A stretch of DNA of 64,000 nucleotides, taken from positions 1 through 64,000 of the forward strand of contig QGNO01000003.1 of assembly GCA_003228195.2 (NCBI GenBank), given 5' to 3'. Under the pieces are notes generated by a model. That model did not search any database, had not been told where the DNA came from, and saw only the letters and a program-made list of their open reading frames with translations. This document shows, piece by piece, positions 34,557 to 47,581 of this stretch (its first letter is position 1; every line of letters starts with the position of its first letter). The DNA is from Chloroflexota bacterium (GTDB taxonomy: Bacteria; Chloroflexota; Dehalococcoidia; Lucifugimonadales; QGNO01). Made by a program: the position numbers and the translations under genes.

Positions 34557-37094
34557 TTAGCTACGATCCTGACGAAGCAAGCTATACACCACCGGAATAA
34601 CTACAAGAGTCAAGAATGTTGAAGTAATTAATCCTCCGATTACAACTATGGCAAGTTCGGCACCTATAATAGTGGCTTGTTGATCAGTAACCACTGCAAG
34701 CGGAATTAAAGCAAATATCGTGGTCAAAGCCGTCATTAAGATAGGGCGCACTCTAAGTTTTCCGCCTTCTATCAAAGCTTCATACAGCTTGTATCCACGT
34801 TGCCTTAATTGCTCAACGAAGGCAATAAGTACTATTGCATTCGTTACCACAAGCCCTATCAACATAAGCATACCAATAAGTGCCGGCAAGCCTAAAGTTC
34901 GCTGAGTAATGAAAAGCGCTGCGAGAGCTCCGATCGAAGCCAAGGGTAAACTAAATACTATGACCAGCGGGCTGATGAAAGAACGCAAGGTAATCAGCAT
35001 AGCCAAATAAACCAATACTACGCTTGCCAACATAGCAATACCCATCTTTATAAAAGCTTCTTGAATGTCTTGGGCAACGCCTCCAGTGCCTAAGGTAACA
35101 CCCTCCGGCAAACCTAATCTATCTATCTCTTGATTTACCATCGTGTTAACTAGTTGAGTGTCTTCAGAAGTGATCGATCCGGTTATTCGTACAGATTCAT
35201 TCCCATTGTAACGATAAATTAGATAGCGGCCAAACTGCTCGCTAATCGCAATATTACCTTTTACATTAACTAATCCTTCAACATCTTGGATTGCCAATAT
35301 AACAGCCTCAGCAAACCCAGATACCTTAGCGTAGTCATTACCCGTTACTGTTAATTCCAATCCTGCACTCGGAGGTCCATTAGTTTGAACAGTTTCGACC
35401 ATTACCGTACGATCTTGTCCTTTAAGCTCAGATCTGAGGAAATCTGCAACTTCCCGCGCGTCAGTACCCTCCGTCAAACGCAAGAAAACGCTTATCAGCC
35501 CGCCGGTAGCCGTATCTAGCCTATCAAAAGCAACGTCACTACCTCCAGCTGTAACTCTGAAAATCTCAACCTTGCCAGTTTGGCGGAGGCCTCCCAGTAC
35601 AGTCTCAATCTGAGCAACTGGCCCCCCACTCGAGACCATCTTATCAATAGGCATAGGTCGGTTCAGCATTACCTCAACTGATAGCAAACTTTCTCCACCA
35701 CCTGGCAAAAATGATTGCGGTATATATGGGAATAGTCCTAGCGTTCCTAGGAAAAGCAACGCTGCAATAACCAAAGTTGCTAACCGATGTTGTAGCGCCC
35801 ATTTCAACGGGGGGCCATACAAACGATTTAACCATCGCTCCAACCGTTCAGAAGAAGAACCAGTCCTTATCAGAAAGCTTCCTAACACTGGCACTATGGT
35901 AAGCGATACCAATAGAGACGCGATCAGTGCAAAAGTTACAGTTAGAGCAAAAGGCAAGAAAAATGCTCCGATTATTCCGCCTATGAAAGCAAGCGGCAAA
36001 AATACCGCAGCGGTCGTCAACGTTGCTGACAAGATAGCTCCTGAGACTTCTTTAGTGCCTTTCAGTGCTGAGACAATACTAGTCTCAGTCCCTTTACTCA
36101 TTTTTATATGGCGATATATATTTTCCAATACAACTATGCTGTCATCCACCACGCGGCCTACGGCAATTGCCAAACCACCAAGGGTCATAACATTCAGGCT
36201 CATATTTTGCCAATTCATCAAAACAAAAGCTATCATAACGCTCAGTGGAATCGACACGGCAGCTACAACCGTAGAACGTACACTAACCAAAAGTAAGAAA
36301 ATCACGCCCATAGCAAATAAACCGCCGAGCAAAGCCTCACGTTGAAGGCTCTCTATTGATCCCTTTATCTCTGGTGCTTGATTAGAGACTATAACTATTT
36401 CCAAATCTTGAGGCAGCTTAGTCTTAAGTATGTCTAGTTGACTCATTGCGGCATCTACAACCTCAACCGTATTTGAGTCAGCATGTTTCAGCACATTCAC
36501 AGACAAGCTAGGCTGCCCATTGGTACGGGTCAGTGAGGTACCAGCAAGCGCTTTGATTGGAACCTCCGCACTTACAACGCCATTCACTAATCTTAAAGCC
36601 GGAAGTATTTCTCCTTCGATTAGTGGAACTAAATCCTTAAGCCCAGATTGCTTCAGTATACTTACCTGCAGTATCGGTATTTCATCCGGGTTGACTCTTG
36701 TAACGTTAGGTTGCTGAACGAGATCTACGAATTTAATGCCTGATAACGTATCAGTAAGTAAACTTTCGACATTAGCCATGTCCTCGCCAAATTCAAACTC
36801 CGCAATTATCAACGAAAGCCCTGGGCTGGACGTGGATTGTAAAGTACGTATTCCTGCAAAGTCCGATATCAAAGTTTCTATCGGATCAGTAACATCGGAA
36901 AGAACCTGCTCTGCATTGCTTCCAGGGTATGCCGTAACCACGGTAACAATTGGAAAATCAATGTCTGGTAATAATTCAACTTGGAGCCGATTGAGCGAAT
37001 ATACTCCGGAGGCTACTACCAGTAAGGCTATGAAAACGGTGCCCCATCGCCACCGGAGAGAGATATCGATCAAGAAACCCATTACTTTTGCCAT
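34557..37094 (-). CDS. RND-family efflux permease, short form
   Basis: This 845-residue protein belongs to the AcrB/HAE1 group of proton-driven exporters. It has twelve membrane helices in two halves, the helix-4 acidic pair in GRVVDDSIVVLENIY, and the helix-1 start LLPDIDFPIVTV. The AcrB helix-10 lysine is replaced, in IGLVVTNAIVLIAF, as in other HAE relatives. It is about 200 residues shorter than AcrB. The missing length lies in the two extracytoplasmic porter regions, as might be expected where no TolC-type channel exists. No membrane-fusion partner is adjacent. The start at 37094 has no clear ribosome site. Confidence 0.88.
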   Translation of the reverse strand: MAKVMGFLIDISLRWRWGTVFIALLVVASGVYSLNRLQVELLPDIDFPIVTVVTAYPGSNAEQVLSDVTDPIETLISDFAGIRTLQSTSSPGLSLIIAEFEFGEDMANVESLLTDTLSGIKFVDLVQQPNVTRVNPDEIPILQVSILKQSGLKDLVPLIEGEILPALRLVNGVVSAEVPIKALAGTSLTRTNGQPSLSVNVLKHADSNTVEVVDAAMSQLDILKTKLPQDLEIVIVSNQAPEIKGSIESLQREALLGGLFAMGVIFLLLVSVRSTVVAAVSIPLSVMIAFVLMNWQNMSLNVMTLGGLAIAVGRVVDDSIVVLENIYRHIKMSKGTETSIVSALKGTKEVSGAILSATLTTAAVFLPLAFIGGIIGAFFLPFALTVTFALIASLLVSLTIVPVLGSFLIRTGSSSERLERWLNRLYGPPLKWALQHRLATLVIAALLFLGTLGLFPYIPQSFLPGGGESLLSVEVMLNRPMPIDKMVSSGGPVAQIETVLGGLRQTGKVEIFRVTAGGSDVAFDRLDTATGGLISVFLRLTEGTDAREVADFLRSELKGQDRTVMVETVQTNGPPSAGLELTVTGNDYAKVSGFAEAVILAIQDVEGLVNVKGNIAISEQFGRYLIYRYNGNESVRITGSITSEDTQLVNTMVNQEIDRLGLPEGVTLGTGGVAQDIQEAFIKMGIAMLASVVLVYLAMLITLRSFISPLVIVFSLPLASIGALAALFITQRTLGLPALIGMLMLIGLVVTNAIVLIAFVEQLRQRGYKLYEALIEGGKLRVRPILMTALTTIFALIPLAVVTDQQATIIGAELAIVVIGGLITSTFLTLVVIPVVYSLLRQDRS

Positions 37095-42751: not shown

Positions 42752-45700
42752 TTACTCAGTTTCTTGAGAGGCATCTTCAAGGCTGTCAGCCTCGGCGCCG
42801 ACAACTTCTTCGAGCGGCTCAACCAACTCAGAATCGCCGCTTAAAGCCGAAGCCAACTCTTCAACATCACGCTCCAAATCTGGCTGAGGAACATCGCTTA
42901 TTATATCGGCCGGCTGATCGCCATCCAAAGAATCCTCGCCATCAGACTGGGCTTGTTTATCTACGGCATTTTGATGCGCGGTTAATTCGTTCACACCGTA
43001 ATCTCCAAAACCAAAGGATGCATCACCATCCCCTAATGGCAATTCAACCCCCTCATCGTTTTCACCGAGTAATTCCACTGACAGACCCAAGCTTTGCAAT
43101 TCCTTTAGAAGTACATGAAAAGATTCTGGGACACCAGGCTGAACTATATCCTCTCCCTTGACGATAGATTCATAGGTTTTCACCCTGCCAACTACATCAT
43201 CAGATTTTACAGTGAGCATCTCTTGGAGGTTGTGCGCAGCACTATATGCCTCTAGAGCCCAAACTTCCATTTCCCCAAATCGCTGACCTCCAAACTGTGC
43301 TTTACCACCCAATGGTTGTTGCGTAATCAGTGAGTATGGACCCGTTGATCTGGCATGAATCTTATCTTCGACTAGATGTATGAGCTTCATCATATAAATG
43401 TAACCAACCGTCACGGGATGATCGAAGGGTTCACCAGTCCTACCGTCGAAAAGAGTCGTCTTGCCAAAAATAGGAGGGACGTTCTTCCCTTCCATATTTA
43501 GTACACGTACCTTATCTCGTAGTGCTTGCGCATCATACTTTGAGGTATCAACTCCGCCCTCTTCTTGCAACCAAATCTTGACACAGGCATCAGATGCAAA
43601 ACCCGTTTTCCTGTCATCAAAAATTTCCTGAGCATCATAACCTCTATCGCTGAGCCATTCCGTAACTTCCGTACTAACTTTATTTCCATTTGACGCACCA
43701 TTTGTGAAATGCCCATTCGACAAAGAAAGTTTAGATTCCTCCACAAACCAAGCACGAGCTAGTGCGTCTTGTATTTTGATGTCTTCAGCTCCATCAAACA
43801 CTGGGGTCACTACAGAGTAATTAAGAGACTTTGCAGCCCAGCCAATGTGTGTTTCAAGCACTTGTCCAAGGTTCATTCTAGAAGGAACCCCTATCGGGTT
43901 TAATATGATGTCAACGGGAGTTCCATCTGGAAGATATGGCATATCTTCGGCTGGTAAAATTCTTGAAATAACGCCTTTATTCCCATGACGTCCAGCCATT
44001 TTATCCCCGGCCGCAATTTTACGTGTTTGAGCTACCCAAACTCTTACTAGCTTGTTGACACTTGGAGGCAATTCATCCTTATTTTCTCGGTCAAGTATCT
44101 TTACATCTATAACCTTCCCTCTCTCCCCATGTGGGACCCGTAAGGAACTATCTTTCACATCCCTAGCCTTCTCACCAAATATGGCTCGAAGTAACTTCTC
44201 CTCCGCTGTTAGCTCAGTTTCACCTTTAGGGGTTATCTTGCCTACAAGGATGTCTCCAGGCTCCACCTCAGCTCCAACCAGTATTACGCCGTCGTCATCT
44301 AGATTGCGCAAGCTCTCTTCACCAACATTAGGAATATCTCTAGTGATTTCCTCAGGTCCAAGCTTAGTATCCCTAGCTTCTGACTCGTACTTTTCTATAT
44401 GAATTGACGTGAATTTATCTTGCTCCAACAGTCGTTCGCTAAGTATGATGGCATCTTCATAGTTATAACCTTCCCAACTCATGAACGCTACTAAAACGTT
44501 TTGACCCAAAGCCAAATCTCCTTTATCAGTGGACGAACTGTCTGCCAACGGGTCACCACGTTTTACTAAGTCGCCTTTGTCAACGATCGGATTCTGAGTC
44601 ATGCAAGTGCCTTGGTTACTACGCACGAATTTGTACAAGTCGTGAACATGTTCTTCCCCATTCACATCAGTGACTACTATCCGATCACCAGCGACAGAAG
44701 TTACTACTCCGTCGGAAGTCGCAAGCGCTACTTGACCAGAGTCAACAGCCACTCTACGCTCCATGCCAGTACCCACAATTGGAGCTTCGGGTCGTACCAA
44801 AGGAACTGCTTGTCTCTGCATGTTGGAACCCATCAAAGCTCTATTGGCATCGTCATGTTCCAAAAACGGAATAAGCGCTGTTGAAACACTGACTATCTGC
44901 ATCGGTGAAACATCCATAAAGTCAACCTGATCAGGTTGTTCTACGGCAAATCGTTCACCTTGCCGAATTTCAATTCGATTTTCAACAAATTGCCCACAAT
45001 CGTCCAACAACGTGTTTGCTTGAGCAACTATGTATGCCTCCTCTTCGTCCGCAGCCAGATAACTGATCTCGTCCTTATCGTGTTTCACAAAAGCCCGTAC
45101 GGAAATATCACATTTAGGTAAAGCGTTCAGCTTAGTTACTAGTGATTTGGTAATTTTACGGCCAGATTTGGCAAGAATCTTTCCGTCGTCACCTCTTACA
45201 TCATCCTGCAGCAAACGACCCTCTAGATCCTTAGACTTACTGGATATTTCATGGAATACTTTCCTATAGGGCGTTTCTATGAATCCAAATTCGTTAGTTT
45301 TTGCATAAGTGGCTAGAGATCCCAAGAGTCCTATATTAGGTCCTTCCGGTGTCTCAATCGGACAAATCCGACCGTAGTGAGAATGATGGACATCACGAAC
45401 ATCAAAACCTGCTCGTTCCCTCGAAAGGCCTCCCGGTCCTAATGCCGACAGTCTCCGCTTGTGTGTTAGTTCAGCAAGTGGATTCGTCTGATCCATAAAT
45501 TGAGATAATTGCGACCCTCCAAAGAATTCACGAATCGATGCTACGACTGGACGTACATTTACCAACGCGCTCGGAGTTGCCTGTTCTGTATCGTTTATGG
45601 TCATCCTCTCCCTCACCACACGCTCCATCCTAACTAAACCAACTCTGAGTTGGTTTAGTATCAACTCTCCGACGGCCCTGACCCTTCTATTGCCTAAATG

Positions 45701-46681
45701 ATCTATATCATCCACGCGTTGGGAACCATTGTTGATCTGAATTATGATCTTAGTTACCTTAACAATATCTTCCTTAGTTAGAGTCCTAGTTTCAATTGGT
45801 AGTGTAAGAGCTAGACGCCGATTTAACTTATAACGACCTACTTTGCCCAAGTCATAACGACGAGAATTAAAAAACAGGTTATCCAAAAGAGCCTCGGCAT
45901 TCTCCTGGCTAGGTGGCTCGCCCGGGCGCAAATGTTTGTAGAACTCGAGCAAGGCCTCATTCTTGTCCTTAACTCCCGAGTCTCGTTCGATAGTGGTTTT
46001 AATAAACTGATGGTCTGGTAATTGGTCAACATCCTTGAACGTGTCTAACAGTTCCTTGTCAGTAGAAATGCCTATCGCCCTCAACAGGGTTGTTACTGGA
46101 GTTTTCCTCTTCCGGTCAACTTTGACAGATATTACGTCCCTGGCGCTAGTTTCAAACTCAAGCCATGCCCCTCTATATGGCACGAACTTAGCCATGGCCA
46201 GCCGTCTCCCAGTGGTCGCATCTTGCTCAATAGTGAAATACACTCCGGGAGAGCGCACGAGTTGGCTGACAACTACACGTTCCGCGCCATTGATTACAAA
46301 TGTGCCGTTTATAGTCATCATGGGAATATCTCCCATGAAGAGTTGCTGCTCCTTAACTTCCCCAGTTTCCTTAATTGTTAGCCTTGCGGTCACATAAAGA
46401 GGAGCCGAATAAGTAATCTCCCTTTGGCGACATTCCTTTTCGTTGTACTTCGGTGTTCGAAATTCATGATCAATAAAATCCAGCTCAAATCTCTCCCCGG
46501 TGAAATCGCGTATCGGAAAAATCTCTTTAAAAAGGTCCTTAATTCCGTCTTTTTTCAGATTTTCAAATGAATCAGTCTGTATCTGGATAAGGTTAGGAAC
46601 GTCCAATATCTGTGATATATGAGCGTATGACCTTTTTTCAAGGCTTGACGAATTTAGTGGTGCTGAAGCCAAATCAACCAT
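42752..46681 (-). CDS. rpoB: DNA-directed RNA polymerase subunit beta
   Basis: This is the 1309-residue beta subunit. It contains the rifampicin-region motifs [17 protein letters not shown] and [17 protein letters not shown], both normal for rifampicin-sensitive enzymes. The active-centre stretches [12 protein letters not shown] and [14 protein letters not shown] are also present. The C-terminal 100 or so residues are acidic and low-complexity. The ATG at 46681 follows AAGGAGAG by 9 nt. The gene heads the rpoB-rpoC transcript from its own promoter. Confidence 0.98.
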
Positions 46682-46898: not shown

Positions 46899-47369
46899 TC
46901 ACAATCTTAGCGATACTAATGTTTCCAATCTAGGGACTCTACCAATTGTTCTCAGCTTTTCTTTAGCTTCACGATCCAAAACAATAAAGGTAGGAACTAT
47001 TGTAGATGTATAACTTTCCTTGACATACTTGCCCAAATTGGAAGAAGTCTCGACCCTGATAAAGTCAAAAACATCGCTGAGTTGTTTTTCTAGCCTGTCC
47101 ACGTCAGGCTTCGCCGAAAGGCAGCCAATTCAGAGATTAGAATAGAGCATCAAAACCGTGGGTCTTCCATTAAGGACAGTCGCATTGAAATCCTGAATGG
47201 TGAAATCCGTGCTCGAGCCAGTACTCATGATTAATTGAAATATGGCCAAAAGCGTGATGGTAATAAAACTCATACAAATGGCTGGCTTCTTGCCAAAGAA
47301 GCTCCAACTAACGAACGTGAACAAGGCAATGACAGCCAAACCAAAAACAACGAAGGAATACCGATTCAA
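46899..47369 (-). CDS. Membrane-anchored thioredoxin-like protein with in-frame TGA (candidate selenoprotein, UxxC)
   Basis: Two open segments (47369-47133 and 47129-46899) are in the same frame and separated only by TGA at 47132-47130. Read through, they give 156 residues: two membrane helices (about residues 5-23 and 32-49), then a thioredoxin fold. The TGA is residue 80, and the protein reads YSNL-U-IGC, so Sec takes the first position of the redox motif and Cys83 the second. Further on come the cis-proline strand IVPTFIVLD (Pro126) and a C-terminal helix. A stop mutation exactly at the catalytic cysteine would be a coincidence; TGA as selenocysteine fits better. The start is uncertain: TTG at 47369 has GGAG only 3 nt away. 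It follows tRNA-Arg by 48 nt and probably shares its transcript. Confidence 0.75.
47092..47132 (-). promoter_or_regulatory. Candidate SECIS element next to the in-frame TGA
   Basis: After the TGA (47132-47130), AGCCTG (47110-47105) pairs perfectly with CAGGCT (47097-47092) around the 7-nt loop ACGTGGA. The loop starts 26 nt after the TGA, inside the 16-37 nt range known for bacterial SECIS elements, and contains GU. Below it TTTC and GAAA can pair across a 5x1 internal loop. SelB binding is inferred. Confidence 0.6.
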
Positions 47370-47417
47370 AAACTCCAGAGTTTAGGTCCTCCTCAATACA
47401 TTGATACTTATGTTTCG

Positions 47418-47492
47418 TGGTACCCCTGCCGGGACTCGAACCCGGGCGCACGGTTTAGGAAACCATCGCTCTATCCTCTGAGCTACAGGGGC
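47418..47492 (-). tRNA. tRNA-Arg (anticodon CCT)
   Basis: The acceptor GCCCCTG pairs with CAGGGGT with one G-T pair. The D-stem is GCTC/GAGC. The anticodon stem ATGGT/ACCGT holds loop TTCCTAA with anticodon CCT. The T-arm GCCGGG-type stem reads CCGGG/CCCGG around TTCGAGT. The discriminator is A and CCA is encoded (47420-47418). Confidence 0.96.
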
Positions 47493-47505
47493 ATGAATCA
47501 CGCTT

Positions 47506-47581
<76 letters not shown>

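Follow-up and report, generated by a model that had tools for sequence, protein, structure and literature searches.

Two small open reading frames lie on the minus strand, at 46899-47102 and 47130-47369, of the window, the stretch of 64,000 nucleotides that we analysed. The question they raise is whether this locus holds two truncated genes or one gene that is read through a stop codon. According to the sequence and the list of open reading frames, the two form a single frame whose sole interruption is a TGA at 47132-47130, as the preliminary description of this DNA had claimed, and the read-through translation confirmed this. The product reads ...LYSNL-U-IGCLSAKPDVDRLE...VPTFIVLD.... The U of U-I-G-C occupies the position of the first cysteine of thioredoxins and the cis-proline strand (VPTF) is intact, both as first described. 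We consider it very probable that the gene encodes a UGA-decoded selenoprotein, in which a U-x-x-C thioredoxin domain is held by a two-helix tether at the outer face of the cytoplasmic membrane.

In the window there are 24 sites at which nothing but a TGA separates two frames that are each 50 amino acids or longer, but a UxxC motif arises only at 47132-47130. The other 23 joined frames were rejected as UxxC candidates because none contains this motif. A TGA-joined frame at 36715 runs antisense to an RND-type transporter gene. Our locus is thus more than a product of chance, as it is the sole UxxC among the 24 pairs and its TGA is kept at precisely this position in homologs.

One detail of the preliminary description had to be changed. 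It placed the beginning of the frame at the TTG at 47369, but the gene probably starts at the CTG at 47378. We favour the CTG because an AGGAGG lies 9 nt upstream of it and because it agrees with the starts of relatives: it gives MEFLNRYS, and relatives begin with MQTFLNQYS or MPILINQYS (pattern M-x-x-[IL]-N-Q-Y-S). The homologs are collinear with the window protein over its full length. The features are collected in the table.

Features of the selenoprotein locus, its neighbours and the SelA genes of the same genome
Feature	Position	Strand	Details and basis
tRNA-Arg(CCT) and tRNA-Ala(CGC)	47418..47581 (47418-47492 and 47506-47581)	-	Upstream neighbours, outside the selenoprotein gene; ARAGORN
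Shine-Dalgarno AGGAGG	47388..47393	-	9 nt before CTG 47378; sequence
Selenoprotein coding sequence	46899..47378	-	CTG start 47378 (or TTG 47369), stop TGA 46901-46899; 159 aa including one Sec; read-through translation
Predicted membrane helix 1, about residues 9-27	47298..47354	-	Follows the conserved N-x-Y-S; hydropathy over 101 homologs, model helix (low confidence), conservation
Predicted membrane helix 2, about residues 33-52	47223..47282	-	Preceded by a positive loop; hydropathy over 101 homologs, model
Thioredoxin-fold domain	46902..47207	-	cis-Pro 46994-46992; PF00085, family profile
In-frame TGA read as selenocysteine, first position of UxxC	47130..47132	-	Residue 83 from CTG, 80 from TTG; shared by about 70 homologs, replaced by Cys in 38
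Resolving Cys of UxxC, residue 86 from CTG	47121..47123	-	Invariant in alignment A1
Bacterial SECIS hairpin	47092..47110	-	Arms 47110-47105 and 47097-47092; loop ACGUGGA, apical GUG; covariation with synonymous-shuffle control, offset scan, energy
rpoB	42752..46681	-	Downstream neighbour, outside the system; list of open reading frames
SelA genes (L018, L019)	Source genome G000, C16:900-2240 and C15:9717-11030		

We looked for homologs first in 98 relatives; a profile was then run through the order and finally through 400 genomes of the phylum. The 98 relatives yielded dozens of full-length homologs, most of which have exactly one TGA, at the identical column. TGA stands at this codon in 50 genes of the order and in about 20 from the phylum sample, and Cys stands there in 38 genes. 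The set that we compared contained 70 Sec genes (69 of them distinct, as the order genome G073 was drawn twice) and the 38 Cys genes. When residue 80 was followed through the homologs, as had been proposed, every full-length member examined had Sec or Cys there. A sequencing or assembly error, or a pseudogene broken at its Cys codon, is suggested by the MAG origin of the data and by the single base change that turns TGC or TGT into TGA, but we reject it as scarcely credible and prefer selenocysteine, because dozens of genomes, assembled independently and drawn from many families of the phylum, have the same TGA in frames that are otherwise open over their full length. This also disposes of the error at the TGA that the preliminary description had named as a danger to its own reading.

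These comparisons indicate that the family extends past the order into other Chloroflexota families. It was absent from the listed genomes of its own class (complete, 1.4-1.9 Mb). A single-protein scan of genome contigs found no relative, a second scan found one Cys-form relative, in the MAG 'Chloroflexi bacterium isolate S1bins113', and a search of viral contigs found none. The flanking open reading frames of 30 homologous loci share no neighbour gene, and adjacency to rpoB is not conserved. We therefore rejected a function drawn from an operon or gene neighbourhood.

If the TGA is decoded as selenocysteine, what directs the decoding? The preliminary description had pointed to a 6-bp stem with a 7-nt loop that begins 20 nt past the TGA, inside the bacterial SECIS range, and this hairpin (stem AGCCUG/CAGGCU) was found again at +20 to +38. 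In agreement with the bSECIS rules that we used (PMC13188914), its apical loop falls within the permitted 16-37 nt downstream and a G stands in a small loop. This G is the third nucleotide of the 7-nt loop, or the first if a C-G pair at +27/+31 is counted. An offset scan of the Sec genes gave a mean of 5.2 of 6 pairs at +20, which was the sole peak, the next best offset reaching 3.7. The Cys genes form 2.9 of 6 pairs at the hairpin position, and none of them is fully paired.

Since the bases of the stem also encode the conserved KPxVDRLE, we used a control in which synonymous codons were shuffled between sequences within each column, so that every protein and its codon make-up were kept. Against this control z was 10.9 in the Sec genes and 1.0 in the Cys genes; the phylum-level Sec genes alone gave 4.8. 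One stem position shows the compensatory pair types G-C, A-T, T-A and C-G. We take this covariation, which comes from related sequences that are not independent, as evidence of an RNA structure beyond protein conservation. The apical GU is conserved within a Val codon, so it cannot be credited to the RNA.

Folding of the region after the TGA, which had been suggested as a check, gave a divided result. The 48 nt from the TGA, folded alone, favour a different structure (-13.1 kcal/mol, z = -1.2), but the stem is preferred (-8.6 kcal/mol) when the first 9-15 nt, which the ribosome would cover, are left out. We regard the stem as established by comparative evidence and not by the energy of a single sequence. 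Six Sec members are without the standard stem (L048, L087, L088, L092, L099 and L100). The Sec forms of the genus that contains genomes G085 and G166 have no standard SECIS stem at +20, and these two genomes each carry both a Sec and a Cys form (L048 and L118 in G085, L087 and L116 in G166).

All four genes that were to be sought according to the preliminary description, selA, selB, selC and selD, are present in the source genome (1.52 Mb, 90% complete, 1.9% contamination). It contains a tRNA-Sec with anticodon UCA (63.8 bits; L001, C19:5128-5221), SelB (357 bits), SelD (386 bits), which is itself a TGA selenoprotein with the Sec site GUAAK, and two SelA genes that score 554 and 540 bits, both far over the family cut-off. 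As SelB was detected in 209 of the 250 genomes of the order, the SelB of this genome is unlikely to be a contaminant. Judged by gene content, the cell is able to insert selenocysteine. About 107 nt upstream of the tRNA-Sec gene there is an ordinary thioredoxin gene (C19:5328-5597).

Since a changed genetic code would also leave the frame open, the open frame alone is no evidence of Sec, and one might propose that UGA is read throughout this genome as Trp or another residue, or that ribosomes read through the stop unspecifically. We give this proposal almost no chance and reject it: TGA is also the stop codon of the selenoprotein gene itself, homologs without the TGA have Cys in its place and never Trp, tRNA-Sec, SelA, SelB and SelD are all present, and a covarying SECIS follows the TGA. 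The selenoprotein reading of the preliminary description is thus supported by the sel genes, by the homologs with TGA or Cys at the same site, and by the hairpin.

The distribution of the two forms suggests a history of exchange. The tree requires 13 Sec/Cys changes, at least five of them on well-supported branches, which indicates that Sec and Cys have been swapped repeatedly during evolution. A SelB was found in 47 of the 52 genomes that carry the Sec form versus 26 of the 42 that carry the Cys form alone (Fisher p = 0.001, kinship not corrected for). The five genomes with a Sec form and no detected SelB are all incomplete MAGs (55-88%). In genera g76 and g48 (G124-G133, G134-G136 and G057) no SelB was detected, and the family members there are of the Cys form only. 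Cys-form copies with a TAG interruption, possibly decaying genes, occur in genome G169 and at L105 in G170. Rare UxxS variants were seen apart from alignment A1; these relatives, in which Sec stands without a resolving Cys, are tandem or single (L153, L158, L167 and L154; for example SHYUAKSLAARP), and in family f85 a UxxS copy adjoins a UxxC copy.

On which side of the membrane does the redox domain lie? The thioredoxin fold is indicated by PF00085, which all 27 aligned members match (best 2.2e-12) and which the window protein matches at 7.6e-5 with a score of 23.1 versus a cut-off of 23.5. The family profile also matches solved thioredoxins (3.5e-13), and the cis-proline is present in all 108 aligned sequences. 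The predicted structure was poor (pLDDT 54, from two input sequences). Between the two helices, the loop carries a net positive charge in 95% of 101 homologs and a negative one in none, and the other sides lean slightly negative on average; the positive-inside rule therefore predicts that the protein has both of its ends outside. Sec-containing thioredoxin paralogs at four loci (L101, L102, L103 and L104) have lipoprotein-type N-termini, and those at L101, L102 and L104 share the active site. At L042/L046 a lipoprotein-type Sec paralog sits directly downstream of the membrane form.

From the positive loop and the lipoprotein-type paralogs we infer that the redox domain is outside the cytoplasm. 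The earlier suggestion of a protein in the membrane or outside the cell is supported, as the two helices and the positive-inside pattern would put the redox domain outside. A selenoprotein whose redox domain faces the cytoplasm, as an ordinary thioredoxin docked to the membrane, seems improbable to us. The domain profile is nearest to cytosolic thioredoxins and no conduit for thiol electrons across the membrane was found in the approximately 90% complete genome, but the charge pattern sets both ends outside and the lipoprotein-type Sec paralogs would be exported.

How new is this family? Proteins of the TxlA/HCF164/slr1796 type have a membrane-anchored thioredoxin domain with CxxC and act with CcdA in photosynthetic organisms; the domain family cd02950 is the membrane thioredoxin TxlA group. 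The Chloroflexota family resembles these proteins in its membrane-anchored thioredoxin domain, but differs in its UxxC and in that no CcdA was found in the approximately 90% complete genome. The scores were 16.6 bits against NF038096 (TxlA/slr1796 type, cut-off 140) and 22.5 bits against the thioredoxin equivalog TIGR01068 (cut-off 96.8).

Among prokaryotic selenoproteins, for which a 2026 review gives 119 families and subfamilies, most of those characterised have a thioredoxin-like fold, and selenium thioredoxin (PF00085, UxxC) is classed as experimentally verified (PMC13188914). Our family shares with selenium thioredoxin the fold, the placement of Sec in the first position of a UxxC active site and the cis-proline, and differs in having two N-terminal membrane helices and a conserved N-x-Y-S, in scoring below the TIGR01068 cut-off and in forming a separate family within Chloroflexota. 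GOS_C (NF045500), the HUIPC thioredoxin-like proteins (NF047660) and SaoT (NF040730) are likewise thioredoxin-like with UxxC (PMC13188914), and none of their models ranks with the 25 families that the 27 aligned members match most. The family is not covered by any selenoprotein model of Pfam or NCBIfam, the best match being generic thioredoxin, below its cut-off for the window protein. In part of the literature on selenoproteins in SAR202, Dehalococcoidia, Anaerolineae and Chloroflexota, no title or abstract describes it.

There is a substantial chance, somewhat short of even, that the Global Ocean Sampling data already list the family, as the anonymous marine 'Trx-like 3' or as another Trx-like class, so that only the organism, the anchor and the distribution would be new. 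In the parts of PMC2398784 that describe it, Trx-like 3 has UxxC, a weak match to cd02950 and both Sec and Cys forms (212 and 183 sequences), and is commoner in marine samples; our family is similar in its UxxC, its marine occurrence, its two forms and its weak thioredoxin- or TxlA-like similarity, and 20 of its 27 members match NF038096 (slr1796 thylakoid protein) weakly. However, the generic thioredoxin model TIGR01068 outscores NF038096, and Trx-like 3 consists of anonymous reads only, likened to our family by a description that mentions neither an anchor nor a topology. Trx-like 3, as described there, may thus be an earlier sighting of the same family. The preliminary claim of an undescribed system holds in that we found no named family or model, but it must be restricted, as UxxC selenium thioredoxins are known and Trx-like 3 may include the family. 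What is new here is a family that is membrane-tethered, by inference extracytoplasmic, and widespread in Chloroflexota; thioredoxin-fold selenoproteins with UxxC were already known.

For the membrane-tethered selenoprotein we propose the following model. UGA is decoded as selenocysteine through the SECIS 20 nt downstream together with SelA, SelB, SelD and tRNA-Sec, as the comparisons show, and the two N-terminal helices would anchor the thioredoxin domain on the outside of the cytoplasmic membrane. Because this is the established chemistry of thioredoxins, we expect the selenolate to be the attacking nucleophile and Cys86 to resolve the intermediate. The protein may act fast on partners in the membrane or outside the cytoplasm, as a thiol-disulfide or peroxide/sulfoxide reductant. 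Over evolution, Sec and Cys have been exchanged repeatedly, and lineages in which SelB is not detectable have the Cys form.

The final part of our model concerns the electron supply. CcdA/DsbD-type partners (PF02683, PF13386) gave no match in the approximately 90% complete genome, and VKOR was not found there. It is possible, although we hold this only tentatively, that the protein belongs to an unnamed, Chloroflexota-wide family of selenothioredoxins, membrane-tethered and extracytoplasmic, which does without CcdA, DsbD and VKOR and uses an undescribed membrane or extracellular electron donor. The link to such a donor could involve the conserved N-x-Y-S, at the outer edge of the membrane.

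As the same TGA arrangement occurs in many relatives, ordinary annotation would split the whole family in two. Our results add a well-supported selenoprotein family across the largely uncultured Chloroflexota, one whose Sec forms would be split by standard gene calling. The family shows repeated Sec/Cys exchange, Cys-only lineages that appear to lack SelB, and tandem UxxS and lipoprotein variants. It is a natural system in which to ask where the electrons come from when CcdA/DsbD is not found, and why bacteria keep selenium outside the membrane.
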